From: Pseudomonas argentinensis
GTDB taxonomy: Bacteria > Pseudomonadota > Gammaproteobacteria > Pseudomonadales > Pseudomonadaceae
Direction: 5' to 3'
DNA: 64,000 bases
Assembly (NCBI RefSeq): GCF_001839655.2
Contig: NZ_CP056087.1
Coordinates: 620,001-684,000, forward strand
The first letter of the stretch is position 1; each line of letters starts with the position of its first letter. The translations under genes and the position numbers were made by a program. The notes beneath the pieces are model-generated. The model did no database searches. It saw only the letters and a list, made by a program, of their open reading frames with translations, and was not told where the DNA came from. This document shows positions 1,456 through 43,865 of the stretch, piece after piece.

Positions 1456-2493
1456 TTACAGCTTCAGCTCCACCGGCCAGGTATCCGACAGGCGATAGCC
1501 CGTTGGCCAGGGGTCGCTCGGGTCGAGCAGGTGCTGGTGAGTACCGGTGATCCACGCCCGGCCGGATAGGCAGGGGTAGATCGCCGGACGACCGGCCACG
1601 TCGGTGAGTGAGTCGATGCGGCAGTGGAATTCGGAGCCGATGATCGAGCGGCCGATAAAGCGTTCGCCCACCGCCAGCTGACCTTTGGCGTGCATGACCG
1701 CCATGCGCGCCGAGCAACCAGTGCCGCAGGGCGAGCGGTCGATCTTGCCGGGGCGGATGACCACCGCGTTGGCGCCGGTGGCGATGCCGTTCTCGTGCAC
1801 CACTGGCGCGGCGATCTGGCAGAAGGAGATATGGCTCCAGTCCGGGTTCAGCGGATGCTGAAAACCGAGCTGCTCATTGGCGGCCTTGGTGATGCGCAGG
1901 CCTATGGCAACGAGATCGGCCGCTTCATCGGCCTGAATGGCGAAACCCAGGTGGCGTGCGTCAGCGATCACGAAGCTGTCGCCGCCGTAAGCGGTATCGA
2001 CCTGCAGCGAACCCAGGCCTTCGACCTCGATCCAGGCGTCGAGCTTGTCGGCAAACGACGGTACGTTCTTCACCTCGACGCGCTTGGCCTTGCCGTCGCG
2101 GCAGTCGGCGACCACTTCCACCAGGCCGCCGGGCGCCTCCAGAGTCAGGAAGGTCTGCGGTTCGGTCATCGGCAGGATGCCACTGTCGAGCAGCACGGTG
2201 GCCACGCACAGCGAATTGGAACCGGACATCGGCGGTACATCGGCCGGCTCCATGATGATCCAGCCCATCTGCGCCTTGGGGTTCTTTGCCGGCACCAGCA
2301 GGTTGACGTGACGGAACACGCCACCGCGCGGTTCGTTGAGCACGAAGTTGCGTAGAAAGTCGTCCTGTTCGATCCAGCGCGACTGCTGCCACAGGGTATC
2401 GCCAGGCGGTGGCGCGACGCCGCCGACGATGACGTCGCCGACCTCGCCTTCGGCATGGCAGCTGACCACATGAATGACCTTGTTGGAGCGCAC
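1456..2493 (-). CDS. Proline racemase superfamily protein, Ser/Cys type
   Basis: A 345-residue member of the proline racemase/hydroxyproline epimerase fold. The first catalytic position reads PPMSGSN, with Ser90 replacing the usual Cys of MCGH. The second, [13 protein letters not shown], keeps Cys256. True proline racemases and 4-hydroxyproline epimerases usually have two cysteines, and trans-3-hydroxyproline dehydratases change the second to Thr, so this is a separate Ser/Cys subgroup. It is the last gene of the importer operon, 12 bp after the ATPase gene, which fits a hydroxyproline isomer as substrate. The start is GTG at 2493 with a GAGGG-like site upstream. The window also encodes a Cys/Cys homologue, lhpA, so the two probably act on different isomers. 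Activity is inferred only. Confidence 0.72.
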
Positions 2494-2505
2494 GGTGCAG
2501 CCCTC

Positions 2506-3228
2506 TTAATGAACCGATTTGAGGAAGTCGGCGGTTTCCGGCTTCTGCGGGTTGCCGAGCACCTGCTCGGGCGCGCCGATCTCGTGCACCAGGCCGTGGC
2601 GGAAGAACGCCACACGGTCGGACACGTCACGGGCGAAGCGGATTTCGTGGGTCACCAGCACCATGGTCATGCCGTCTTCGGCAAGCATGCGCATGGTGTC
2701 GAGCACCTCGCCGACCAGTTGCGGGTCGAGGGCGCTGGTGGCCTCGTCGAACAGCATGTAATCGGGGCTCATGGCCAGGGCGCGGGCAATCGCCATGCGC
2801 TGCTGCTGGCCGCCGGAGAGCTTGCCGGGGAACACCTTGAGCTTGTCGGCCAGGCCCACGTGGGTGAGCTGCTGCACGGCGATGGCCTCGGCTTCCTGCT
2901 TGCTCAGGCCGAGCACCTTGCGCGGCGCCAGCATGACGTTCTCCAGCACGGTCAGGTGCGGGAAGGCGTTCCACTGCTGGAACACGATGCCGATCTTCTG
3001 GCGCAGCTTGTTGATATCGGTGCCCGGCGCATGCACCTCGGTGCCGTCGACGCGGATGCTGCCGCTCTTGATCGACTCCAGGCCGTTGATGCACATCAGC
3101 AGGGTCGACTTGCCAGAGCCGGAGCCGCCGATGATCGACACCACTTCGCCCTTGTTGACGGTCAGGCTGACGCCCTTGATCACATCCAGGCTGCCGAAGG
3201 ATTTGTGTACGTTGTCGATCTCAATCAT
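2506..3228 (-). CDS. Polar amino acid ABC transporter ATP-binding protein
   Basis: A 240-residue ATPase that powers the importer encoded around it. Walker A is GGSGSGKST (about 34-42), the signature is LSGGQQQR, and Walker B with the catalytic carboxylate is YMLFDEATSALD. The start at 3228 (MIEIDNVHKSF) is preferred to 3258 because the family begins at this point. It overlaps the upstream permease gene by 8 bp, so translation is probably coupled. The order binding protein, lhpI, two permeases, ATPase, racemase-like enzyme makes this the likely hydroxyproline uptake system, as in the equivalent P. aeruginosa cluster. Confidence 0.9.
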   Translation of the reverse strand: MIEIDNVHKSFGSLDVIKGVSLTVNKGEVVSIIGGSGSGKSTLLMCINGLESIKSGSIRVDGTEVHAPGTDINKLRQKIGIVFQQWNAFPHLTVLENVMLAPRKVLGLSKQEAEAIAVQQLTHVGLADKLKVFPGKLSGGQQQRMAIARALAMSPDYMLFDEATSALDPQLVGEVLDTMRMLAEDGMTMVLVTHEIRFARDVSDRVAFFRHGLVHEIGAPEQVLGNPQKPETADFLKSVH

Positions 3229-3871
3229 TTTCCTGCCACCTTCTTTCCAGCCGGGCACCCAGTTGGGCGACCACCAGGCTCATGACGTAGTAGATGAGGC
3301 CGGCGATGCACAGCACCAGCAGCGGCTCTTGAATGCGCGTGACGATGGTTTGCGAGGCGCGCAGCAGCTCGACGATGCCGATCCACATCACCAGCGCGGT
3401 GTCCTTCATCACCCCGAGCACCAGGTTCAGCCAGCCGGGGAAGGCCACCCGGGTAGCCATTGGCAGCACGATGTAGCGCAGGTCCTGCAGGTAGCTCAGG
3501 CCCAGCGAGCGGCTGGCGCGGCGCAGGGTGAAGGGCACCGACAGCACGCCGCTGCGCACGATCTCGGTGAAGTAGGCGGCGGCGTAGATACCCAGCACGA
3601 TGCAGCCTACCGCGAAGGCGCTGATGTCGATGCCGGCGATGCTCTTGAACGAGTTGAACAGCACGAACTGGATGAGCAGTGGCACGCTGCGAAACACGTC
3701 GAGCACCCAGGCCAGCGGCAAAGTGGCGCGCGGCAGCAGGGCGCGCAGCAGGCCGAACAGCAGGCCGGCGAAAGAGCCCAGCAGGATGGCCCAGAAGGTC
3801 AGTTGCAAGGTGACCCAGGCACCGTCGAGCAGGTAGAGGAAATCGTTCCAGGTGAAGCTGGTATCGAACAT
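3221..3871 (-). CDS. Amino acid ABC transporter permease (HisM/HisQ family)
   Basis: A 216-residue inner-membrane permease with about five hydrophobic segments and a typical EAA loop (RRASRSLGLSYLQDLRYIVLP, about residues 115-135). The start at 3871 (MFDTSFTW) has a GAGGAAG box just upstream and lies 10 bp after the other permease gene stops. It probably pairs with the permease at 3882-4547 as a heterodimer. Its own stop overlaps the ATPase start. Confidence 0.88.
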   Translation of the reverse strand: MFDTSFTWNDFLYLLDGAWVTLQLTFWAILLGSFAGLLFGLLRALLPRATLPLAWVLDVFRSVPLLIQFVLFNSFKSIAGIDISAFAVGCIVLGIYAAAYFTEIVRSGVLSVPFTLRRASRSLGLSYLQDLRYIVLPMATRVAFPGWLNLVLGVMKDTALVMWIGIVELLRASQTIVTRIQEPLLVLCIAGLIYYVMSLVVAQLGARLERRWQEND

Positions 3872-3881
3872 GTGTGCTTCC

Positions 3882-4547
3882 TCAGTAACGGAACAGGCGC
3901 CAGGCCAGCAGCCGGGCAACCGCCACGATCGCCTTGGCGATCAGGTAATACAGCACCGCCGCGATGGCGAAGAACTCGAAGGTGCGGAAGGTCTTGACGT
4001 TGTAGTCCTGGGTGACGCCGGTGAGGTCGTTGTTGAGGCCGACGATCACTCCCAGTGAGGTCATCAGCACGGCCCAGACCATCTGGTTGGTCAGCGGGTA
4101 GAAGACGATGCGCAGCAGCTGCGGCACGACGATCATCCGGTAGGCCTGGAAGGCGCTCATGCCCAGCGAGCGGGCGGCACGCACCTGGGTGCCGGGCACG
4201 GCCTTGAGACCACCGCGGAAGTTTTCCGCCAGGTAGCCAGCGTTGTTGAAGGTGATGCCGGCCAGCAGCGCGACCCAGGAGCTGACGTGCCAGCCCATCG
4301 AGCCCAGGCCGAAGTAGAGGATATAGATCTGGAACAGCGACGGCGTGTTGCGCGCGATGGATACCCAGGTGTTGGCAAAGCCTCGGGCCACGGGGTGCTT
4401 CAGCTCACGCATCACCGTCAGGGCGAGGGCGATGAGCACCCCGAAGATCATCGACAGGGCGGCTGTCTCGAAGGTTATCCAGGCGCCGGCGAGCATGTCG
4501 GGCAGCGCCTTGAATGCCTGGCGCCAATGGAAGGTGTAATCAAACAT
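3882..4547 (-). CDS. Amino acid ABC transporter permease (HisM/HisQ family)
   Basis: A 221-residue membrane permease with the EAA-type loop AARSLGMSAFQAYRMIVVPQ. The start at 4547 (MFDYTFHWRQAF) overlaps the end of the upstream aconitase-X gene by 8 bp (ATGTTTGA), so the longer frame starting at 4625 is unlikely. Its N-terminus resembles that of the sister permease (MFDTSFTW), which suggests an old duplication. It is part of the presumed hydroxyproline importer. Confidence 0.88.
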   Translation of the reverse strand: MFDYTFHWRQAFKALPDMLAGAWITFETAALSMIFGVLIALALTVMRELKHPVARGFANTWVSIARNTPSLFQIYILYFGLGSMGWHVSSWVALLAGITFNNAGYLAENFRGGLKAVPGTQVRAARSLGMSAFQAYRMIVVPQLLRIVFYPLTNQMVWAVLMTSLGVIVGLNNDLTGVTQDYNVKTFRTFEFFAIAAVLYYLIAKAIVAVARLLAWRLFRY

Positions 4548-6348
4548 GCGCGGGGTTCTCCACAGGGGAAGCCGGTTGCAGCCAGCACGGCAGACGGCCA
4601 CTGGCTTGGCCCGAACAGGCGGCATCGACGCACTCGGCCAGGCTGGCGAAGTGCACCGAACGGCCGACCAGCCCTGGCGCGTAATGGGCGTATTTGCCCG
4701 AGTTGGTCATCAGGGTGCGGCAGCCCGTGGGCACCACGGGCTCGCCGAGCATGCACCAGCAGGTGTCGGTCACCAGGGTTGCGCCGAAGGCTTCCAGCAC
4801 GGTGAGGTAACCGGCCACGCGGGCCTGCTCGTGAATCGCCCGACCACAGGTGATCACCAGGCTTACCCCAGCGTGCTTGCTGCGGCCTGCGCACAGTTCG
4901 GCGAGGCGGGCGAATTCGCTGAGCGAGAAATGCGGATTGCCGAGGGCGATCAGCCCCACCTCGGTGTCATTGGCGCTATTGAGTTCGTCCCAGCTACGGC
5001 GCAGATCGGCGAGGGCGACCCGCTCGGTAGGCGCCCGCTGACTACTGTGGATAACTTGTTCCGGATCCAGGGCTTCCGGGGTAACACCGGCGATATGGAA
5101 CAGCGGTGCTGCCGAGCTGGTGGCGAAGGCAGCGCCAAAGGCCCTGAGATCGTCCAGGCTCGGCTGGGTCCTTTCCAGGCCGAGTACCAGCGGAATATGG
5201 CTGCCGCAAAGCAGGCCGACGTGGTAACCGAGCAGCGGGTAGAAGGCATCGTCCAGCTCGGCAAGTTCGGGCAACTCGATCTGCAGGCTGGCCATGCGCT
5301 GCTCGTCGAGGTGGCAACCGACTTTTGGCGCACGGCCGGTGAGGGCGATGCAGATATCCAGATAATCCGGATACTTCAGGGTGCGCGCGCCAAGCACGCT
5401 GTTGGCGTACACCACCGCATTGGATTCGGCCCAGACGATCTGCTCGCCCTCGGCTGGCGCGCTGTCCAGCAGGTAGGGCGCGCAGGTGAAACTGAGCTGC
5501 GCACCCATGGCCATGTAGGCATCGCCGAGTGCACTGGCCGGCTCGCCGAATGTGGCGTCGATGCCCAGGGCGCGCCAGCGGCGTTGGTCCACGGAAATCG
5601 AGTTGAGGGTGGTCGGCACGCGCACCCTGGCTCCCCAGGCCACCAGTTGCTCGGCGAAGCGCAGGCTGGCCGGACCGGTATAGATGCAGCCGTCGATATG
5701 CGCCTGGGTGACATCCAGCAATTCGCTGGCGCCCTGCAGATCGGCCATGCGCAGCACCAGCTGCATGGCCACCTGGGCAGCCTTGCCGTGGCGGCCATCG
5801 AGCAATGCACGGTCGCTTTCGCCCAGTTGCAGGGCGCTGGCGAATGGCGGCTGGTGTAGTGAGGTAATGCCAGTCGGCTTGGCATCGGCAGGCCGCTGTG
5901 GATAAAGCTGCAGCCGCTCACCGTCGAGGCGGGCGTAAGCCTTGCCACGCAAGCGAGTGAAGGCTTCATGGCCAATGCACAGTACGGCGATGGAACGCTG
6001 GAACAGCAGCTCGGCCACCAGCACGCCGAGGGTGAGGATCTCGTCGGCCTCGGCGAGCACCAGGGCGCAGGGCGCGTGCTCGCCGCTGAGCAGCTCCATC
6101 ATCACGCTGCTGCCGGTGCAGGAACCGCGACCGCTGGGAATGGCCAGCACGCGGCCCGTCAGCTTCTGGCCACTGAGCGGATGATGGCGGTCGATCACCT
6201 CGCCCGTGAACGGATCGACGCCGCCCCAGAAGCTCAGGCCCATCTCGGCGAACAGCAGCTCACCCTCGGCACGCCCGACGATCAGGCTGCGACCCTGGAG
6301 GGTGCAGGCTGGCGAGTCGGCCGAGGCGTGGTCAGCAACTGTTGGCAT
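4540..6348 (-). CDS. lhpI: Aconitase X family, probable cis-3-hydroxy-L-proline dehydratase (single-chain)
   Basis: A 602-residue protein joining the two aconitase-X modules. The N-terminal part (about 15-145) is the small swivelling domain, with RVLAIPSGRGSCTGSSVMMELL. The rest is the large catalytic domain, with GPASLRFAEQLVAWGARVRVPTTLN and CGRAIHEQ. Aconitase X proteins have been shown to include cis-3-hydroxy-L-proline dehydratases, which make 1-pyrroline-2-carboxylate. Its position between importer genes fits this. The start at 6348 (MPTVADHAS) has a GGAG site 7 nt upstream; the extra 36 residues of the longer frame are Arg-rich and unlikely. It overlaps the following permease gene by 8 bp. 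Another aconitase-X activity, such as mevalonate 5-phosphate dehydratase, is improbable here. Confidence 0.8.
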   Translation of the reverse strand: MPTVADHASADSPACTLQGRSLIVGRAEGELLFAEMGLSFWGGVDPFTGEVIDRHHPLSGQKLTGRVLAIPSGRGSCTGSSVMMELLSGEHAPCALVLAEADEILTLGVLVAELLFQRSIAVLCIGHEAFTRLRGKAYARLDGERLQLYPQRPADAKPTGITSLHQPPFASALQLGESDRALLDGRHGKAAQVAMQLVLRMADLQGASELLDVTQAHIDGCIYTGPASLRFAEQLVAWGARVRVPTTLNSISVDQRRWRALGIDATFGEPASALGDAYMAMGAQLSFTCAPYLLDSAPAEGEQIVWAESNAVVYANSVLGARTLKYPDYLDICIALTGRAPKVGCHLDEQRMASLQIELPELAELDDAFYPLLGYHVGLLCGSHIPLVLGLERTQPSLDDLRAFGAAFATSSAAPLFHIAGVTPEALDPEQVIHSSQRAPTERVALADLRRSWDELNSANDTEVGLIALGNPHFSLSEFARLAELCAGRSKHAGVSLVITCGRAIHEQARVAGYLTVLEAFGATLVTDTCWCMLGEPVVPTGCRTLMTNSGKYAHYAPGLVGRSVHFASLAECVDAACSGQASGRLPCWLQPASPVENPAHV

Positions 6349-6486
6349 CGATGGCTCCAGGCGTTGATAGGAAGCCCGGCGCCATGGGGCGCGCGAGCGT
6401 GAAATCGTGGGTGTGCAGGTACGCAAACCTAGGGCGGGCTGGGCGTGCTGCCGCATGCCCTTCCACGGGTTACAGATGGTTGCTAA

Positions 6487-7305
6487 TCAGTAGTACACGC
6501 CCGGCACGGTCAGGTTGGCCGGTTTGATTTCGTCGCCGACCCACTTCTTCCACAGCTCGTCGTAACGGCCACTGCGGACCTGCTGATTGACGAACAGATT
6601 GAGGTAGTTGATCAGGCCGTACTCGTCGCGCTTGGCGGCCAGGGACACGTAGTCGACGACGTAAGGCGCATCACCGACCACTTTCAGGCCCTTGTACTTG
6701 CCGGACTTGAGGGTGGCGGCTGCCACGGTGTTGGTGACCACGGTGGCGGCAATGTGGCCCTGAGCGACGGCGAGAATGGTGTCGTTCTGCGACTGATAGG
6801 CACGGAAGCTACCGCCGCCCCAGGCTTTCACGTCCTTCTCCAGTGCAATGGCCTCGTAGGTACCGCTGGTGTTACCCACGGCTTTGCCCTTGAGGTCTTC
6901 GTAGCTGCTGATACCGGTGTCTTCGCGGGTCAGTACCACCATCTGGAAGGCGAAATAAGGCACGGTCATGCCTACGGTCTTGGCGCGCTCCAGGGTGTCG
7001 GAGGTGGAGGCGACGATCACGTCGGCGCGGCCGGAAACCAGCGCCGGGATACGATCCGGGAATGGCGTTTCCACCACTTCGGCCTCTACGCCAAGCACTT
7101 TCGCCAGGTCGTTGCAGTAGTCGACGTCGAAGCCGACGGGCTGGTTCTTGTCGTCGCGCGAGCCCATGGGTGGGAAGTCCAGGGTTACCGCGCAGCGGAG
7201 CTTGCCGGACTCGATGATCGAGTCGAGTTTGTCGGCGTGAGCGGTGCCGATCAGGGTGGTGCTGAGTACTGCGCTGAGGGCTACGGCAAAAGCGGGGTTT
7301 TTCAT
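6487..7305 (-). CDS. Periplasmic amino acid-binding protein of the hydroxyproline-cluster ABC importer
   Basis: A 272-residue family 3 solute-binding protein. A Sec signal peptide (about 1-24, ending GTAHA) precedes DKLDSIIESGKLRCAVTLDFPPMG. The family hallmark GFDVDYCNDLAKVLG and the EVVETPFPDRIPALVSGRADVI segment are present. It is the first gene of the transport operon and is followed after a 138-bp gap by lhpI. A TCGTATACGA operator lies 41 bp upstream of the start codon. The ligand (hydroxyproline or an isomer) is inferred from the gene neighbourhood. Confidence 0.88.
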   Translation of the reverse strand: MKNPAFAVALSAVLSTTLIGTAHADKLDSIIESGKLRCAVTLDFPPMGSRDDKNQPVGFDVDYCNDLAKVLGVEAEVVETPFPDRIPALVSGRADVIVASTSDTLERAKTVGMTVPYFAFQMVVLTREDTGISSYEDLKGKAVGNTSGTYEAIALEKDVKAWGGGSFRAYQSQNDTILAVAQGHIAATVVTNTVAAATLKSGKYKGLKVVGDAPYVVDYVSLAAKRDEYGLINYLNLFVNQQVRSGRYDELWKKWVGDEIKPANLTVPGVYY

Positions 7306-7345
7306 AGGAGCCTCGAAACGGTGCAGACAATCGTTATAGGAGATT

Positions 7346-7355
7346 TCGTATACGA
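7346..7355. promoter_or_regulatory. GntR/FadR-type operator upstream of the hydroxyproline importer operon
   Basis: The core palindrome TCGTATACGA lies 41 bp upstream of the binding-protein start, embedded in AT-rich DNA (7341-7365) likely to contain the promoter. It matches the core of the lhpC operator at 1121-1134 exactly. Confidence 0.62.
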
Positions 7356-7526
7356 TATTTTATATGCAACCGCTGTGCCTGTTCTGCGGCGCGATGCTGC
7401 AGGCCGCGCGCAGTGGCGGATCGATAGGAAATGAGGGGCAAACGGGCAGTCATGAGCGCAGACGGGGTGTTACAAATGGGAGCGACAGCTGCCCGCTGCC
7501 GCACTGGTTCGGAACACCCGGCGGTA

Positions 7527-8276
7527 TCAGCCGGCGTGCGATTGACGGAATTGGCTAGGCGTCAGCCCGGTAAGTGCACGGAACTGGCGGCTGAAGGCGC
7601 TGTGGTCGGTGTAGCCGCAGCGCAGGGCGATCTCGGTGATCGGCAGATCCTGCAGCAGCAGGCGGCTGGCTTCGCCGAGGCGCGCCTTATGAATCATCTG
7701 CCGCGGGGTGAGCTGAAAGATGCGCTTGCAGTGGCGTTCCAGCTGCGCCACTGACAGCCCGGCCAGCTCGGTGAGCTCGGCCAGGCTGATCGGCCGGGCG
7801 AAGTGCTCGCGGATATGGGCATCCACCGCCGCCAGCTTCGGGTACGCCGGATGGGCGGACTGCGGCAACTGCACATCGCGGGAAATACCCGCCAGGCCGA
7901 TGATCTCGCCTGCCGGGTTGCGCAGCGCCAGCTTGTGGGTCAGGCACCATACCGGCTGGTTGCCGTAATAGAGGTGCAATTCCAGCTGGTCGTCGAGCTG
8001 GCTGCCGTCTTCGAGCACCCGCCGATCCTGCGCCGTGTAGGAAGGGCCGAAGCTAGCCGGAAACACCTGTTCGGCCGTCATGCCCAGCAGGCTCTGCTTG
8101 TTCCTGACGCCCAGGCGCTGCACCAGGGTCTGATTGACCAGCGCATAGCGGGTCGCGGTGTCCTTGACGAAGAACACTGCCTCGGGCATCGCATCGAGCA
8201 GCGGTTCGATCTGCCGCAAGGTGTCGACCACGGTGGGCAAGTCGTTATGGGGCGAGTGGGGCAGCAGGCTGTGCAT
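7527..8276 (-). CDS. lhpR: PAS domain-AraC family transcriptional regulator (LhpR-like)
   Basis: A 249-residue regulator. A PAS domain fills about 20-135 (AMPEAVFFVKDTATRYALVN, then GEIIGLAGISRDV). An AraC/XylS double helix-turn-helix fills about 150-249, with the family motif CGYTDHSAFSRQFRALTGLTP split over its usual positions. It lies directly upstream of the importer operon on the same strand, with a 220-bp gap. The equivalent gene in P. aeruginosa is LhpR, an activator of hydroxyproline catabolism. The PAS domain may sense a pathway intermediate. The name rests on family and position. Confidence 0.75.
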   Translation of the reverse strand: MHSLLPHSPHNDLPTVVDTLRQIEPLLDAMPEAVFFVKDTATRYALVNQTLVQRLGVRNKQSLLGMTAEQVFPASFGPSYTAQDRRVLEDGSQLDDQLELHLYYGNQPVWCLTHKLALRNPAGEIIGLAGISRDVQLPQSAHPAYPKLAAVDAHIREHFARPISLAELTELAGLSVAQLERHCKRIFQLTPRQMIHKARLGEASRLLLQDLPITEIALRCGYTDHSAFSRQFRALTGLTPSQFRQSHAG

Positions 8277-8374
8277 GGGGGTCAGATGGGGAGTGGGAGA
8301 GTACGCAGACTACCGCACGCCGAGGCCTAGTGGGTCTAACGACTGGAGATCAGGAGCCGTGGGCGCAAACGCCA

Positions 8375-8714
8375 GAAAGCAGAAGGGGGAGCCTAAGCTC
8401 CCCCAAATCTTGTTCGAATCATCGTTCTTATTAGTGCTACCGGCCTGTTGTTCTTGTTTGAGCCGAGGCCTCCAAAGGAGGCCAAGAGCGAACGGATTTG
8501 TTTGGACGCTGATGTTGCCGTGATCCTGAGATCCAACCCGTCTGTCGCTGCCTTGCAAAGCAGTTTTATTGTTCTCGACCCGGTTGCGGTACAAGCCCGA
8601 GGGCGGTCCTCTCCAAAGAAATCAGTTAGCTGCGTCTCTGCGTTTTTGTCTTTCTTATGCTAGAGCCGTTGTCTTGTTCTTGTTATCAGATGTGTCTTGT
8701 TATTTTTGTTGTGC
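8375..8714 (-). ncRNA. CrcZ/CrcY-family small RNA that sequesters Hfq/Crc
   Basis: The minus strand here reads as a Crc-antagonist RNA of about 335-340 nt. It would begin GCACAACAAAAATAACAAG (from 8714), very like the start of known CrcZ. It carries about six A-rich AAN-repeat motifs on the complement: 8695-8712, 8668-8686, 8642-8656, 8563-8574, 8444-8459 and 8423-8433. It has an internal GGCCTCC/GGAGGCC hairpin (8467-8483) and ends in a perfect GGGGGAGC/GCTCCCCC stem (8385-8404) followed by a pyrimidine-rich tail. A sigma-54 promoter lies at the right distance upstream. Such RNAs bind Hfq with Crc and relieve catabolite repression. cbrB is not adjacent, so it may be the CrcY or CrcX type rather than CrcZ itself. 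A 94-codon frame over it is not credible. Confidence 0.85.
8385..8404 (-). terminator. Terminator of the CrcZ-like RNA
   Basis: A perfect 8-bp stem GGGGGAGC/GCTCCCCC with a 4-nt loop. On the minus strand it is followed by TTCTGCTTTC, a moderate U-rich tail. It closes the small RNA transcript before the lhpR-like gene. Confidence 0.7.
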
Positions 8715-8723
8715 GAGACATAG

Positions 8724-8740
8724 AGCATAACCTGTGCCAA
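8724..8740 (-). promoter_or_regulatory. Sigma-54 promoter of the CrcZ-like RNA
   Basis: On the minus strand the site reads TTGGCACAGGTTATGCT. GG and GC are separated by exactly 10 bases, as in the -24/-12 consensus TGGCAC-N5-TTGCW. The predicted transcript start is at about 8714, at the conserved GCACAAC. Confidence 0.82.
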
Positions 8741-8814
8741 TTTCAGAATATCTATATTTATCAATAAGTTAAGATTTTCAGCGTTTTTCCGGATGCGCTT
8801 CTGAGCACAAAAGC

Positions 8815-8840
8815 GTTACCGCGCTACCCGTTTTGTTACC
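8815..8840. promoter_or_regulatory. Candidate CbrB enhancer repeats
   Basis: Two GTTACC direct repeats (8815-8820 and 8835-8840) lie 20 bp apart, about two helical turns, and 75-115 bp upstream of the sigma-54 promoter. GTTAC/GTAAC elements are typical of CbrB binding regions before crcZ-type genes. The assignment is inference from position and motif. Confidence 0.45.
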
Positions 8841-8891
8841 GTTTGATGTGTGCAGCCATGGGGCGAAGAAAGAACAGGATTGATTCCCATC

Positions 8892-10151
8892 TCAGCGGCT
8901 CTGGGACGCCTCCTCCAGCCTGATGAGGGTGTCGATGCGTGCTGGGCTGTAGGGCGGCCGGGGCGGCGCTGGCTGCCAACCGAACAGATGATGGGCAGCG
9001 GCACCGCACACCCGGCCCTGGCAGGCGCCCATACCGCAGCGGGTCGCCAGTTTCGCCTCGCGCCAGCTGTCACGCGTGGCCACGGCGCCGTAGGGCACGT
9101 CTTCGCAACGACAGAGCAGGGTGTCCGCTTCGGCCAGGCGCTTGATTGCCGGATCGAGGGCGAAGTAGCGGTGCAACGCGTCGGCGAAGCGCTGCCAGCG
9201 GGCGCGTGTCGGCCACAGCCGCTGCGCAGCCTCGCGGTTGCCAGCCGCGACATGCCCGGCGATGCGCCCTTCCACCAGCGCCAGCTCGCTGCCACCGAAG
9301 CCGGTGCATTCACCGGCTGCATAGATACCCGTGACGCTGGTCGCTTGCCAGGTATCCACGGCAATGGCGTTGTTACCCAGTGCGCAGCCGAGGGCCCGCC
9401 CCAGCTCTGTGTTGGCGATCAGGCCGAAGCCGCAGGCCAGCCGCTCGCACGCCAGCTCCTCGACCTGTCTGCCGCGCCGCAGGCGCACGCCTTCCAGGCG
9501 ATCCGTGCCCAGCGCGGCGATGACGCGCGTGCCGGGCCGATACCCGCGATCGAACAGACCGAAGGACTGCAGCCATTTGTGCGGCCAGCGCGGCAGTTGC
9601 AGGGCGAAGGCGGTGATGGCAGCTGCGGACGCCTGTTCGGCGATGCGCAGCACGCGGGCGCCAGCCTGTTTCGCGGTGCTCGCGGTAGCCAGCAGCAGCG
9701 GGCCGCTGCCGGCGATCACGGTGCGCTCGCCCGCCATCGGCAGCCCGCCCTTGATCAGCGCCTGCAAGCCTCCGGCGCCGGTAACACCGGGCAGCGTCCA
9801 GCCGGGAAAGGGCAGTAACAACTCCCGCGCACCGGTGCACAGGATCAACCGCTGGTAGCCGATCACCCAGCCGCGCTCGGCATTCTCGACCAGCAAGGCA
9901 CTGCTGCCGACCCTGGCTACCACGCGTGTGGTGGCGTGGCGCTCGATGGTGGCGTGGTTATCCACAGCGTCGCGCAGCCGGTACGCCTGGGTGGATACCC
10001 TGGCCCCTGCGCCATCACGCCAGATCTGCCCGCCGGGCAATGGGTTGTCGTCGATCAGCACCACCCGGGCGCCATCCCTGGCCGCGGCCAGGGCGGCGGA
10101 CAGGCCGGCCGGACCCGCGCCGACGATCAGCACATCGGTGCTCTGGTTCAT
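8892..10151 (-). CDS. lhpE: D-hydroxyproline dehydrogenase, large FAD subunit (LhpE-like)
   Basis: A 419-residue flavoprotein. The N-terminus has a dinucleotide-binding motif VLIVGAGPAGLSAAL (about 6-20), and a second GSGPLLLATA motif lies near the middle. The C-terminus has a cysteine cluster (LCRCEDVPYG, then CGMGACQGRVCG) like the BFD-type iron-sulfur region of related amino acid dehydrogenases. It is the last gene of lhpA-lhpB-lhpF-lhpE. Its ATG (10151) overlaps the stop of the ferredoxin-like gene by 4 bp, which fixes the start. The complex oxidises D-hydroxyproline and passes electrons to the respiratory chain. Letter naming follows the P. aeruginosa lhpABFE order as I recall it. Confidence 0.8.
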   Translation of the reverse strand: MNQSTDVLIVGAGPAGLSAALAAARDGARVVLIDDNPLPGGQIWRDGAGARVSTQAYRLRDAVDNHATIERHATTRVVARVGSSALLVENAERGWVIGYQRLILCTGARELLLPFPGWTLPGVTGAGGLQALIKGGLPMAGERTVIAGSGPLLLATASTAKQAGARVLRIAEQASAAAITAFALQLPRWPHKWLQSFGLFDRGYRPGTRVIAALGTDRLEGVRLRRGRQVEELACERLACGFGLIANTELGRALGCALGNNAIAVDTWQATSVTGIYAAGECTGFGGSELALVEGRIAGHVAAGNREAAQRLWPTRARWQRFADALHRYFALDPAIKRLAEADTLLCRCEDVPYGAVATRDSWREAKLATRCGMGACQGRVCGAAAHHLFGWQPAPPRPPYSPARIDTLIRLEEASQSR

Positions 10152-10384
10152 GGCCGGGTCTGCACCTGCATGCCGTCGCGGCACAGGGTCTGGCAGGCCA
10201 GTCGGCGCAGGCCGTCGATGGTGACCCGGCATTCCTGGCACACGCCCATGCCGCACAGTGGCGCCCTGCGCCCGCCGCTCACTGCGGTGCGCGCACTGCC
10301 ATCGCCGCCCAGTGCCAGGGCGGCGGCCACCGTGGTGCCGGGCGCCACCCTGAGGGGGCGGCCGTCGAGATGCAGGTCAGGCAT
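10148..10384 (-). CDS. lhpF: D-hydroxyproline dehydrogenase, small [2Fe-2S] subunit (LhpF-like)
   Basis: A 78-residue ferredoxin-like protein. Cys44, Cys49, Cys52 and Cys64 (CGMGVCQEC, then LACQTLC) form the expected [2Fe-2S] ligand pattern of the Fer2_4 family. It has no signal peptide and acts as the electron-transfer subunit between the two flavoproteins. The start at 10384 ([11 protein letters not shown]) overlaps the end of lhpB by 8 bp, and its stop overlaps the lhpE start by 4 bp. The longer frame beginning at 10555 lies inside lhpB and is rejected. Confidence 0.82.
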   Translation of the reverse strand: MPDLHLDGRPLRVAPGTTVAAALALGGDGSARTAVSGGRRAPLCGMGVCQECRVTIDGLRRLACQTLCRDGMQVQTRP

Positions 10385-11492
10385 GGGCGGGCGCTCCGAG
10401 GTAACGCTGCGGTGAATAGGCAGCCGCGGGTATCGGCTCGGCCTCGTTGAACAGCAATGCGGCGAGCAGATCGGCAGTACCCGGCGCAGCGGTAACACCC
10501 AGCCCTTCATGGCCGACCGCCAGCCACAGGCCAGGCTGCGCCGGGTGCTCGCCAATCAGCGGCATGCCGTCTGGTGTGGCGGCGCGAAAGCCCGCCCAGG
10601 CGCGGATGCCATTGAGTTGCGCCAGGCCCGGCGCATAGCTCGCGGCGTGCTTGAGCATGCGCGCCAGCAGCCAGCCGTCGACCTCAGGTTCGAGGGTATC
10701 GAATTGCCGCGAGGTGCCGATGAACAGCTGGCCGGTCGGCCGTGGCTGGATATTGCAGGCCACCGAGGCGCCACTGCTGTTGTGCACACTGGTCAGGTAG
10801 CTCAGCTCGGTAATGGTGTGGGTGACCGGGTGCGGGTAGCGGTCGGTGATCAGCAGGTGGCCTTTCTTCGGCGCGATGGGCAGCGCCGGGCATAGCTCCA
10901 CGGCCTGGATGCCGTTGGCGAGCACCACGGCATCGGCGCCTAGCCAGCTACCGTCTTCCAGGCGCAGGCGGTTGCCGGCCAGCTCGACGACCCGTGCGCG
11001 GCGCTGGCGTATGCGCGGCTCGTCGAGCAGCCAGCGTGCGGTATTCGGTGCGTAGAGAATGCCGTCGTCCGGCAGGCGCAGGGCGCCGTGCAGGCCATCG
11101 CGCAGAATCGGCTCCATCGCCTGCAGCGCGTGGCCGGGCACCATCTCGCAGCGTATTCCCTCGGCGCGCAGGTTGAGGCTCTTGGCCTCCGCTGCGGCCA
11201 GTTCTTCTTCGTTGGCGGCCAGCCACAGCGTGCCGTTTTGGCGATACGCGCAGTCGTCGGGCAATTGCGGGCCCAGCTCGCGCCAACGGCGCAGCGAATA
11301 GCGGCTGATATCCAGTTCGGCCTGGTTGTCGTCGAGCACCAGCAGATGGCCCATACCGGCGGCGGTGGCGCCGTGCAGGCCGGCGTCGATGACCAGCACC
11401 TGCTGACCACGGCGGGCCAGTTCGCGGGCGCAGGCGGCCCCGATGATGCCGGCGCCGATAACGATCACATCGGCGACCCGCGTCGGCGTCAC
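10377..11492 (-). CDS. lhpB: D-hydroxyproline dehydrogenase, DAO-type FAD subunit (LhpB-like)
   Basis: A 371-residue D-amino acid oxidase-fold flavoprotein. It has [20 protein letters not shown] at the N-terminus and [14 protein letters not shown] and [22 protein letters not shown] at the C-terminus, all FAD-binding signatures. I choose the GTG at 11492 because it overlaps the lhpA stop as GTGA, a coupling seen throughout this operon. The 75 extra residues of the longer frame are an antisense-like Arg-rich stretch. It is the catalytic subunit that oxidises D-hydroxyproline to 1-pyrroline-4-hydroxy-2-carboxylate, together with lhpE and lhpF. Confidence 0.85.
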
Positions 11493-12562
11493 GGGCGAAT
11501 GCCCCAGGCGAAGGGGTCGTCCGAGTCGAGTAACAGCGTGGCCTCGGCGCTGATATGGGCACGGCCGCGAATGGTCGGAATCACCTTGTCGCCCAGCCAC
11601 TGGTACGACCCTTCGAACAGGCTGCCGATCACGCTGGCCTGGCGCCAGGTTTCGCCGGGCTGCAGCTTGCCATCGGCGGCCAGGCAGGCCAGCTTGGCAC
11701 TGGTGCCGGTGCCACACGGAGAGCGGTCGTAAGCCTTGCCGGGGCAGAGCACGAAGTTCCGGCTGTCGGCTCGCAGCGAAGCTGCTGCGCTCGATGATGC
11801 TGCGTTGGGAACTGGCGAAAAATGCTCATTTACAGCCAGTAAACTGCGCTTTTTCGTCAGCTCCCGCCCTGCCTCCTCTGCGCTCGCGACGCTTGGCTGC
11901 GAGCCTCCCGGCTGTTCATGTTCGGCAAACAGCTCGATATGGTCGATCAGGCCGCCGTCCTCACCCCGAATGCCCTGGTCTTCCAGCGCCTTCTGCACCG
12001 CATAGGTATAAGCGCTCAGCGCTTCGACGTTGTCGCCGGCGATGCGCTGGCCATGCTCGGCGATCAGAAAGAACCAGTTGCCGCCCCAGGCGATATCGCC
12101 CTGCACCAGGCCGTAGCCCGGCACCTGCAGCTCGACACCCTGGCGATAGCGGTAGGACGGCACGTTGCGCACGCTGACCGAGCGATCCCCATGCAGGGTC
12201 GCCTCCACGGTACCCACCGGCGTTTCGATCTTGTGCACACCGGGGCCGATGCGGCCCATATGGGCCAGCGACACCACCAGGCCGATGGTGCCGTGGCCGC
12301 ACATGCCGAGGTAGCCGGTGTTGTTGAAGAAGATCACCCCGGCACAGGCGGTCGGGTCCACCGGCTCGCAGAGCAGGGCGCCGACCAGCACGTCGCTGCC
12401 GCGCGGTTCGAGCACCGCCGCGGCGCGCCAGTGATCATGCTCGCTGGCCAGCAGCTGTTTGCGCTCGGCCATGCTGCCGGTGCCCAGATCAGGAAAGCCG
12501 GCGATCACCAGCCGCGTCGGCTCGCCGCCGGTATGGGAGTCGATCACTTCGATGCGTTTCAT
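11489..12562 (-). CDS. lhpA: 4-hydroxyproline 2-epimerase carrying an in-frame repeat insertion
   Basis: A 357-residue proline racemase-family epimerase that converts trans-4-hydroxy-L-proline to cis-4-hydroxy-D-proline. Both catalytic cysteines are present: [10 protein letters not shown] (about residue 88) and [13 protein letters not shown] (about 278). The family is usually near 310 residues. The excess maps to about residues 219-265, where a 141-bp repeat element (11767-11907) is read through in frame as a Ser/Ala-rich segment just before the second active-site motif. Whether the enzyme stays active cannot be told. The start at 12562 ([15 protein letters not shown]) matches the family N-terminus; the longer frame from 12661 does not. 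It is the first gene of the lhpABFE operon. Confidence 0.85.
11767..11907. mobile_element. MITE-like repeat inserted in lhpA
   Basis: The ends GGCTCGCAGCGAAGC (11768-11782) and GCTTGGCTGCGAGCC (11891-11905) are inverted repeats with 14 of 15 matches. An 8-bp direct repeat CCGGCTGT flanks the element at 11759-11766 and 11908-11915, a candidate target-site duplication. The interior encodes no transposase. It is 141 bp, a multiple of three, with no stop codon in the lhpA frame. Adding the 8-bp duplication would shift the frame by itself, so a further 1-bp change, perhaps the extra A in GAACAGCCGG at the lhpA-upstream copy, is needed to explain the open frame. Confidence 0.7.
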
Positions 12563-12667
12563 GGGCGCTGCGCCTGTATGCCGATTGAATGGCCACAGGG
12601 TGACGCGGGGCGGGCCAGACGGCTTGAAGGATTTGCGCGGGTGCGATGACGAAATCGGCATAGGATC

Positions 12668-12733
12668 AGCTACAAGCTACAAGCTAGAGTTGAGCCTGTT
12701 TTCTCTTGTGGCTTGCAGCTTGAGGCTTGCCGC
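12668..12733. repeat. Heptad-type hairpin repeat, copy 1
   Basis: The left arm carries AGCTACAAGCTACAAGCT; the right arm carries CTTGTGGCTTGCAGCTTGAG. Both are built from 7-bp CAAGCTN units in opposite orientation, so the whole folds as a hairpin. Related elements are at 18622-18703 and 44771-44899. This copy fills most of the gap between lhpA and the L,D-transpeptidase gene. Confidence 0.6.
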
Positions 12734-12738
12734 TAAAT

Positions 12739-13452
12739 TCAGCCTTCCTTGGCGCTGAGGATGCCGGCGACCAGAGCCGGCTTGCAGTTGATGAACGCCG
12801 AGGCTTTCAACCAGCGCTTGTCCGGGTAGTAGGAAAACATGAATTGGCCACCCTTGAGGCTGTCTACCACCATGCGCGCCACTTCCGGGCGGACCGCGGG
12901 GCAACCCTGGCTGCGGCCGATGCGGCCCTGGGTCTTGATCCAGGCGGGGTTCACGTAGTCGGCGGGGTGGATGACGATGGCGCGCTGGCGCGCCAGGTCG
13001 TTGAAGCCGGGCTCCAGGCCGTCCATACGCAACGAGTAGCCATGTTTGCCGGTGTAGCTTTCGCTGGTGCGGAACAGGCCGATGCTGGACTGATGGCTGC
13101 CTTCACGGTTGGAGAAGCGCGTGGCGAAGTTGTCGCCGGACTGTTGGCCGTGGGCGACCAGGTCGTGCAGCAGCACGCGCTTGCTGGTCAGGTCGAAGAT
13201 CCACAGGCGGCGTTCGCTGGAGGGTTTGGAGAAGTCGATCACGGCCAGGCGCTGGGCAGGCACGGCACCATTGTTGATGGCGCAGCGCATCGCATCGAGG
13301 GCGTGGTTGAGGACCTTGCGGTCGAGCGCCGGGGCTTGGGCCGACAGCCCCTCCAGCAGGGGATCCGGCGCCAGGGTGGCGGCGATCACCGATGGAACGG
13401 GCAACGCCAGGCAAAGAAAGGCTAAGCAAATTCGCTGAATCGTGGTCATCAT
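12739..13452 (-). CDS. Murein L,D-transpeptidase catalytic-domain family protein, secreted
   Basis: A 237-residue protein with a signal peptide (about 1-21, ending SVIAA). The C-terminal half has AIVIHPADYVNPAW and GRIGRSQGCPAVRPE; the Cys in SQGCPAV is the predicted nucleophile of the YkuD-like L,D-transpeptidase family, and the His in IHPADY its partner. This subfamily acts in the periplasm on peptidoglycan or its anchored lipoproteins. The start is ATG at 13452, with ATG 13449 as alternative; the ribosome binding site is weak. It is divergent from a second, larger L,D-transpeptidase at 13623, with a 170-bp shared promoter region. Confidence 0.82.
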   Translation of the reverse strand: MMTTIQRICLAFLCLALPVPSVIAATLAPDPLLEGLSAQAPALDRKVLNHALDAMRCAINNGAVPAQRLAVIDFSKPSSERRLWIFDLTSKRVLLHDLVAHGQQSGDNFATRFSNREGSHQSSIGLFRTSESYTGKHGYSLRMDGLEPGFNDLARQRAIVIHPADYVNPAWIKTQGRIGRSQGCPAVRPEVARMVVDSLKGGQFMFSYYPDKRWLKASAFINCKPALVAGILSAKEG

Positions 13453-15236: not shown

Positions 15237-15255
15237 AGTCGGAGCAGCTGCGTTT

Positions 15256-15316
15256 TTGGGAGCGCGCCATGCGCGCGAATCGCGGGCATGGACTAGGCGT
15301 CCGCGCCCGACCCCGC
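15256..15316. repeat. REP-like palindromic repeat, copy 1
   Basis: The unit GGGAGCGCGCCATGCGCGCG, then CGGGCATGGACTAGGCG and a GCCCG-rich end lies between converging genes. Close copies occur at 25392-25449 and 30585-30641, and a variant at 20630-20697. Confidence 0.65.
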
Positions 15317-15346
15317 AAGCATGAGTCCGTCTTCCGGACTGCCGAC

Positions 15347-20574: not shown

Positions 20575-20629
20575 GTCAGTCGGCCCTGATATCGTGGGGC
20601 GGGCGGGGAGGCCGAATCTCCTCGAACCC

Positions 20630-20697
20630 GTGGGAGCGGGCGGGGACGCCCATTCCATGCCCGCGAAGCCTTCGGGCGCATGGCGCCCTCCCACAAG
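20630..20697. repeat. REP-like palindromic repeat, copy 2 (variant)
   Basis: The element runs from GTGGGAGCGGGCGGGGACGC to GGCGCCCTCCCAC. It shares the CATGCCCGCGA core with the other copies but in the opposite orientation. Together with the terminator it accounts for most of the 333-bp gap between pycB and the next gene. Confidence 0.6.
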
Positions 20698-25358: not shown

Positions 25359-25391
25359 TCAGCGGCCGCTGCTGGCTTTCCGCGACTCAGT

Positions 25392-25449
25392 GTGGGCGCG
25401 CGCCATGCGCGCGAATCGCGGGCATGGACTAGGTGTCCCCGCCCGCTCC
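25392..25449. repeat. REP-like palindromic repeat, copy 3
   Basis: GTGGGCGCGCGCCATGCGCG followed by CGGGCATGGACTAGGTGTCC and CCGCCCGCTCCAC. It is nearly identical to copy 1 at 15256 and sits directly before the GTAGGGTGG palindrome. Confidence 0.65.
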
Positions 25450-25456
25450 ACAGTCT

Positions 25457-35815: not shown

Positions 35816-35895
35816 GGGACATCCTTGTAAGTGAGTGTTAAAAACAGGCTGGCTTCCGTCAGCCGGGCGCGACTATACCGACTTTTCGCGCACTA

Positions 35896-36152
35896 GGGTC
35901 TGTTCTCGTTTCACGCACGGCCGCGCCGGAGCCAATTTTTACGCGAGGCAAGGCACGAGATGCCAAGGTTGGCGGGCCAGATGAGCCATGGAGTAACCCG
36001 CATCGCGCAAAAACTGGCCCGGCCCTTCGGGTGGGACGCCTAGGTTGCGCGGGAAACGGCCTCCGCTGTCGTTGCAGGACTTGGCAAGGGAGCGACTAAC
36101 CGGAGGCCATTTCTCCCAGCAACGCGGCTCGCGCTGAAACGGGAACAGCCCC
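35896..36152. repeat. GGGTCTGTT long inverted-repeat element, copy A
   Basis: The left end GGGTCTGTTCTCGTTTCA (35896-35913) and the right end TGAAACGGGAACAGCCCC (36135-36152) are inverted with two mismatches. Inside, AAACGGCCTCCG and CGGAGGCCATTT pair again, and the CAGCAACGCGGCTCGCGCTG end matches copy B (43663-43819). It fills the gap between the lipoprotein and asparaginase genes. Confidence 0.6.
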
Positions 36153-36161
36153 TCCCATGCC

Positions 36162-43662: not shown

Positions 43663-43819
43663 GGGTCTGTTGACGTTTCAGCACGACCCTTCAGGTTGCA
43701 CGGGAAATCTCGCCATGCGTTGGAGGACTTGAAGAGGGAGCACCATTTCCTGCGTCCTCCGCCTCGCCTGGCGAGATTTCTCGCAGCAACGCGGCTTGCG
43801 CTGAAACGTCAACAGACCC
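43663..43819. repeat. GGGTCTGTT long inverted-repeat element, copy B
   Basis: The ends GGGTCTGTTGACGTTTCAGC (43663-43682) and its exact inverse (43800-43819) form a perfect 20-bp inverted repeat. Inside, GAAATCTCGCCA (43704-43715) pairs with TGGCGAGATTTC (43769-43780), and GGAGGAC (43722-43728) with GTCCTCC (43754-43760). The 157-bp element is therefore one long nested hairpin. It lies between aspA and the LysR gene and is related to copy A at 35896. Confidence 0.75.
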
Positions 43820-43865
43820 TAATGCACCAAACGTGTGCGCAGGCCTGCAGGAGTGGAGAGCGCCG

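Follow-up and report, generated by a model that had tools for sequence, protein, structure and literature searches.

A divergent CrcZ-family small RNA predicted in the hydroxyproline gene cluster of Pseudomonas argentinensis

The RNA and its neighbours in the lhp cluster

The window, that is the whole stretch of 64,000 nucleotides that was analysed, carries a hydroxyproline (lhp) gene cluster, with an RNA gene on the same strand as the lhp genes (Table 1). Upstream of the RNA lie genes for a hydroxyproline epimerase, a FAD oxidase, a 2Fe-2S protein and a FAD oxidoreductase, and downstream those for a PAS-AraC regulator, ABC transporter parts and a cis-3-hydroxyproline dehydratase. We call the regulator LhpR-like, a name inferred from its place.

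Table 1. Features of the RNA locus and its surroundings (window coordinates).
Feature	Position	Strand	Remarks
cis-3-hydroxy-L-proline dehydratase LhpI	4540..6456	-	NF051439, 882.6 bits (cut-off 700)
PAS-AraC regulator downstream of the RNA	7527..8276	-	PF08448, PF12833
CrcZ-family sRNA	8370..8714	-	Rfam RF01675; predicted 5' end 8714, 3' end about 8370-8385
Terminator hairpin	8385..8404	-	weak T tract TTCTGCTTTC
sigma-54 (RpoN) promoter TTGGCACAGGTTATGCT	8724..8740	-	GG-N10-GC; sequence match
Possible IHF site TAACTTATTGATA	8759..8771	-	between CbrB sites and promoter; relaxed consensus
Two CbrB-type R subsites (GTAACA, GTAACG)	8814..8839	-	20 bp apart; as defined for P. putida
FAD-dependent oxidoreductase, last lhp-operon gene upstream of the RNA	8892..10256	-	PF07992; true start probably near 10151
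4-hydroxyproline epimerase	11489..12661	-	NF010577, 538.6 bits (cut-off 442); true start probably internal

The original prediction had read positions 8375..8740 as a CrcZ-type RNA, and had named a covariance search as the check. That search gave a match to the full-length Rfam CrcZ model (RF01675, model positions 1-398) at 8712-8359 on the minus strand, with 233.1 bits (E 1.7e-63), far above the gathering score of 95 bits. It was the sole Rfam match at gathering scores across the window, and RF01675 was also matched in 6/6 related loci scanned. The span was rightly drawn, with the CbrB-type sites falling just beyond its edge, and the predicted start GCACAACAA does begin at 8714 on the minus strand. 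As judged from sequence, the identity of the RNA is settled by the Rfam match, neither the sigma-54 nor the GTAAC motif being decisive by itself. CrcZ-family sRNAs of related bacteria switch off the control by which cells eat the best food first.

The stop codon of the oxidoreductase gene precedes the start of the Rfam match by 179 nt, and the regulator gene starts 82 nt past its other end. The RNA is therefore beside a hydroxyproline regulator in the window, as had been noted, but this relation is not conserved. The gap is about 70-145 nt in seven other distinct loci (L034 and L173 being one contig), about 540 nt in L036, and about 3 kb in four relatives (L039, L170, L175 and L177), where an opposite-strand gene of 814-855 codons intervenes (a PQQ dehydrogenase in L170). 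What stays constant beside the RNA is, on its upstream side, the lhp-operon gene for the FAD oxidoreductase.

Promoter and upstream sites

The sigma-54 promoter, predicted to have exact spacing, was found where it had been placed. It is the only zero-mismatch match in the window to YTGGCACRNNNNWTGCW, our working consensus, which was loosened so as to admit this site. With up to one mismatch allowed, the window has 4 matches where 1.70 would be expected, a count reached by 7 of 100 shuffles. A sigma-54 site at -27 is present in all rows compared: 14/14 lhp-type, 9/9 local crcZ, 6/6 other crcZ and 3/3 crcY.

The upstream repeats, two helical turns apart, likewise occur at the predicted place, in the form GTAAC-N15-GTAAC at 8839-8815 on the minus strand. 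This pattern has a single match in the window at up to one mismatch, where 0.50 would be expected, and 35 of 100 shuffles contain at least one. Among the lhp-type copies, GTAAC is found at -106 to -108 in 14/14 and at -127/-128 in 12/14. According to the available text of a P. putida study (PMC6296734), CbrB subsites F1, R1 and R2 are spaced by 20-25 bp, at least two of them are contacted by CbrB, and replacing the first one hurt crcY most. The window copy has both R1 and R2. In contrast, an exact F1 subsite (TGTTAC near -151) was found in 0/14 lhp-type rows, versus 18/18 of the compared crcZ and crcY rows. Given the effect of F1 replacement on crcY, CbrB control of the lhp copy may be weaker. 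The same source states that IHF assists P. putida crcZ and crcY. A putative IHF site, by a relaxed consensus, occurs in 12/14 lhp-type, 3/3 crcY and 4/6 other crcZ rows, and in only 2/9 local crcZ rows.

A-rich motifs, terminator and fold

Several A-rich Hfq motifs are present as predicted, although five AAnAAnAA clusters were counted and not about six. None of 2000 dinucleotide shuffles reached five (shuffle mean 0.47). Five is the number in 14/14 lhp-type copies, and six that in 17/18 compared crcZ and crcY rows; six A-rich Hfq/Crc motifs are also given for A. vinelandii CrcZ/Y in the accessible part of PMC6292655. On the minus strand of 2400-12900, nine of 10 AAnAAnAA matches fall inside the RNA. 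The sole match outside it, at 11209, is within a gene, and the same scan left the lhp gene starts without any A-rich motif, so that nothing points to a local Crc target at the start of a gene.

The terminator, a hairpin followed by a weak T tract, is also where it had been predicted, and its pairs are retained in 10/10 lhp-type copies compared. The RNA is predicted to fold fairly stably (-97.6 kcal/mol, z -2.2, equalled by 2 of 100 shuffles). Among 10 lhp-type copies, 6 of its 81 predicted pairs have changes on both sides that preserve the pair, and 10 are broken in at least one sequence (covariation term -0.91 kcal/mol). Covariation within the lhp type being slight, it is the Rfam model that carries the case for the structure.

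A second Crc-type RNA in the genome

The genome, a single contig with completeness 100, contains two CrcZ-model matches. The other copy (G000:C1:4609022-4609395, 209.7 bits) lies after cbrA-cbrB and before pcnB-folK, the canonical crcZ place. The window RNA, which had been proposed as a second or third Crc-type RNA, is thus the second, and the covariance search found no third CrcZ-family copy in the genome. It has no cbrB beside it, that place being occupied by the other copy; it is neither after mvaB nor within the crcY clade, but sister to crcY/crcX. The genome has hfq (101.5 bits) and also crc. The best solved-structure matches of the crc product are 2myi (7.8e-161), deposited as exodeoxyribonuclease III, and 4jg3 (5.6e-157) and 4f1r (8.4e-157), both catabolite repression control protein; the next match is far weaker (1.4e-58). 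With canonical crcZ, cbrAB, hfq and crc all present, the window RNA adds a second Crc-type member to a complete system. Genomes of the same genus mostly have one to three CrcZ-type RNAs each.

Distribution among relatives

When 398 genomes of the same genus, taken from a larger group, were searched with blastn, the RNA had matches in 394; as far as identity tells, these are mostly ordinary crcZ/crcY cross-hits. Among the matches listed, a copy at least 83% identical occurs in nine genomes, including that of the window, and the other rows have 70-76% identity over shorter stretches. The copy is in the lhp cluster in eight of the nine genomes. In the ninth, G472, the DNA equivalent to window 12324-8990 and 12467-12405 is missing, which is most of the lhp operon. 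There the RNA is flanked by a fragment of the epimerase gene and the short tail of an oxidoreductase gene, and 620 bases including the RNA and its promoter are 90% identical to the window. LhpI was not found in the G472 genome, nor in that of G468, which retains the upstream lhp genes.

Among named loci with the regulator gene, the RNA is present in 6 of the best 80 of at least 544 confirmed relatives: P. argentinensis, P. flavescens, P. cuatrocienegasensis, P. seleniipraecipitans and two strains without species names. In four of the 80 loci (L040, L065, L102 and L113) fewer than 800 bases lie upstream of the regulator, so that the RNA could be missed there. NCBI taxonomy places argentinensis and flavescens in Phytopseudomonas, and all carriers presumably belong to the straminea group. 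The lhp placement of the RNA is clade-specific.

A search of an open-access collection found no report of a Crc-type RNA at an lhp locus, a placement that may have been published elsewhere. It gave none of crcZ together with argentinensis or of Crc together with Phytopseudomonas; for crcZ and hydroxyproline it returned one Burkholderia paper, whose available text does not link the two.

Divergence and kinship

The mean difference among the nine genomes is 0.077 for the lhp RNA, 0.170 for crcZ and 0.268 for cbrB third positions. The lhp RNA is less divergent than crcZ in 34 of 36 genome pairs, these pairs not being independent. Such slow divergence, below that of crcZ in the same genomes, argues for a working gene. 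The canonical crcZ scores 207-234 bits in six of the nine clade genomes, versus 292-312 in the other three.

As a separate observation, crcZ after cbrB is both diverged and shortened in those six genomes (L003:7023-7381, L178-L182).

In a tree of 83 chosen rows, a subset of the copies from which L034 was left out (same contig as L173), the 14 lhp-type rows form one clade (100/100). This clade is split from 34 crcZ rows (99/91); its sister group comprises crcY, crcX and some further copies, and it branches outside all crcY/crcX rows. In a second tree, the outgroup consisted of CrcZ-like RNAs from a different family (L264 and L265, with L266 and L267 unused), and four long-branched rows (L194, L245, L246, L262) were dropped. 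The outgroup stem is 1.3 and joins among crcZ rows, and alternatives for the deeper order have p values of 0.41 and 0.33. The mvaB gene is present in 9/9 clade genomes, and its 1.5-kb flanks contain no trace of a crcY remnant or other Crc RNA at E 10 in any of them (the G208 locus being short on the upstream side).

Two origins, both of which fit the decoy reading set out below, appear about equally probable to us: the RNA may be a crcY relocated from the mvaB site into the lhp cluster, or a separate old paralogue. The move is favoured by the tree, which places the lhp copies on the crcY/crcX side, and by mvaB flanks free of any Crc RNA trace. Against it, the group falls outside every crcY/crcX row, the tree's deeper order admits the alternatives just given, and the lhp GTAAC positions are closer to those of crcZ than of crcY. 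If the clade's own crcZ had been duplicated recently, this would account for the presence of both RNAs in the same genomes with similar promoter spacing, but such an origin is very unlikely: an AU test rejects a joint clade of the lhp type and local crcZ (p 0.011 with L184, 0.028 without), long branches being involved in this comparison.

Compared with CrcZ (RF01675, cbrB-crcZ), the lhp RNA shares the full covariance match, the sigma-54 site at -27, GTAAC near -107/-127, A-rich motifs and the terminator hairpin; it differs in not lying by cbrB, in having no TGTTAC F1 and five instead of six A-rich clusters, and in its separate clade. Like CrcY (mvaB-crcY, of P. putida and others), to whose side of the tree it is nearest, it is a second genome copy on the same strand as its upstream gene, which it follows at about 160-190 nt (some 150-220 nt for crcY after mvaB). 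In contrast to CrcY, it has another host locus, is outside the crcY/crcX rows and misses F1. With CrcX (P. syringae type, a putative label for those third copies that share a locus) it has in common being an extra family member at a further locus, although both locus and clade differ.

Proposed role

The RNA is best read as a new, divergent member of the CrcZ/CrcY/CrcX family that acts in trans as a decoy for Hfq-Crc. In the accessible text of PMC8871633 and PMC6292655, CbrB with RpoN turns on such RNAs when carbon is poor, and their A-rich stretches hold Hfq-Crc. By analogy with the family, on poor carbon CbrA-CbrB, IHF and RpoN would start transcription at 8714; the RNA of roughly 340 nt would bind Hfq-Crc via its A-rich stretches, and this capture would relieve the repression of catabolic mRNAs, in trans and cell-wide.

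From its sequence features, the RNA is very probably a functional second Crc antagonist in the hydroxyproline cluster of the Phytopseudomonas-like (P. straminea) group. The full-model Rfam match, the promoter parts, the five A-rich clusters and the presence of cbrAB, hfq and crc count for the decoy, as do the occurrence of the RNA in all nine clade genomes examined, its slow divergence and its persistence in G472. Counting against it are the loss of F1 in 14/14 copies, five A-rich clusters versus six, and the slight covariation. The loss of one CbrB subsite and of one A-rich motif, and a score of 233 bits, below the 329-375 of many family copies among the matches listed, could also suggest a decaying duplicate without function. 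This is extremely improbable, since the RNA diverges more slowly than the local crcZ, which scores still lower, has kept its promoter spacing in 14/14 rows, and has outlasted most of the host operon in G472. A local cis element, either a leader or attenuator of the downstream regulator or a regulator of the lhp genes alone, would suit the common strand and the short distance to the regulator in the window and the seven other loci. We consider it most improbable: the distance grows to about 540 nt in L036 and to about 3 kb with an opposite-strand gene between in four loci, most of the lhp operon is gone in G472, the lhp gene starts have no A-rich motif, and the RNA is closed by a terminator hairpin.

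Under the decoy reading, part of the RNA might come from read-through of the lhp operon, as P. putida crcZ does from cbrB and crcY from mvaB. The layout behind a catabolic operon is the same, and hydroxyproline could thereby feed the lhp copy. In 13/13 loci a simple scan found the stretch from the oxidoreductase stop to the RNA free of terminator-like sites, and as a control it recovered the RNA's own terminator in 12/13 (L170 was missed). Processed CrcZ is functional in A. vinelandii, according to the available part of PMC6292655. Read-through input is a plausible hypothesis, against which count the retention of the RNA without most of the operon in G472 and the absence of a Crc motif at any lhp gene start. 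A further step is conceivable, though rather unlikely: the lhp RNA would be the Crc antagonist under the stronger constraint, with crcZ drifting, and growth on hydroxyproline would, by read-through and processing, yield a Crc decoy that adds to a CbrB input weakened by the loss of F1. If this were true, the place after the lhp operon would feed a substrate-specific signal into global catabolite control. A clade-specific copy in a substrate operon, which changes more slowly than crcZ and outlived most of that operon, lends itself to the question of whether each CrcZ-type copy receives an input of its own from the locus that hosts it.

Other Crc-type RNAs and repeats

Crc-type RNAs were also seen elsewhere. 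Tandem pairs follow mvaB in two genomes, G086 and G051 (L235 and L237). Eleven extra copies occupy one shared locus, adjoining an apparent betaine-type substrate-binding gene (recognised by eye); these are probably CrcX. An extra copy in G229 (L194:6027-6414) adjoins gbcA, a glycine-betaine catabolism gene, and so lies at another catabolic locus. Further Crc-type RNAs are at other loci (L244-L246, L255), so that relocation of extra copies appears to have happened several times.

In other families of the order, six CrcZ-like RNAs were found (L265-L268, L270, L271), five of them under the gathering score. All six adjoin cbrB homologues of 63-68% identity, outside the family of the window, although CbrAB is called unique to its family in the available text of a review (PMC8871633).

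Finally, five short stretches of the window, at about 15253-15317, 20624-20696, 25377-25453, 35892-36153 and 43743-43821, have 80-92% matches to loci of relatives, and some of these stretches are recurrent and may be REP-like elements.
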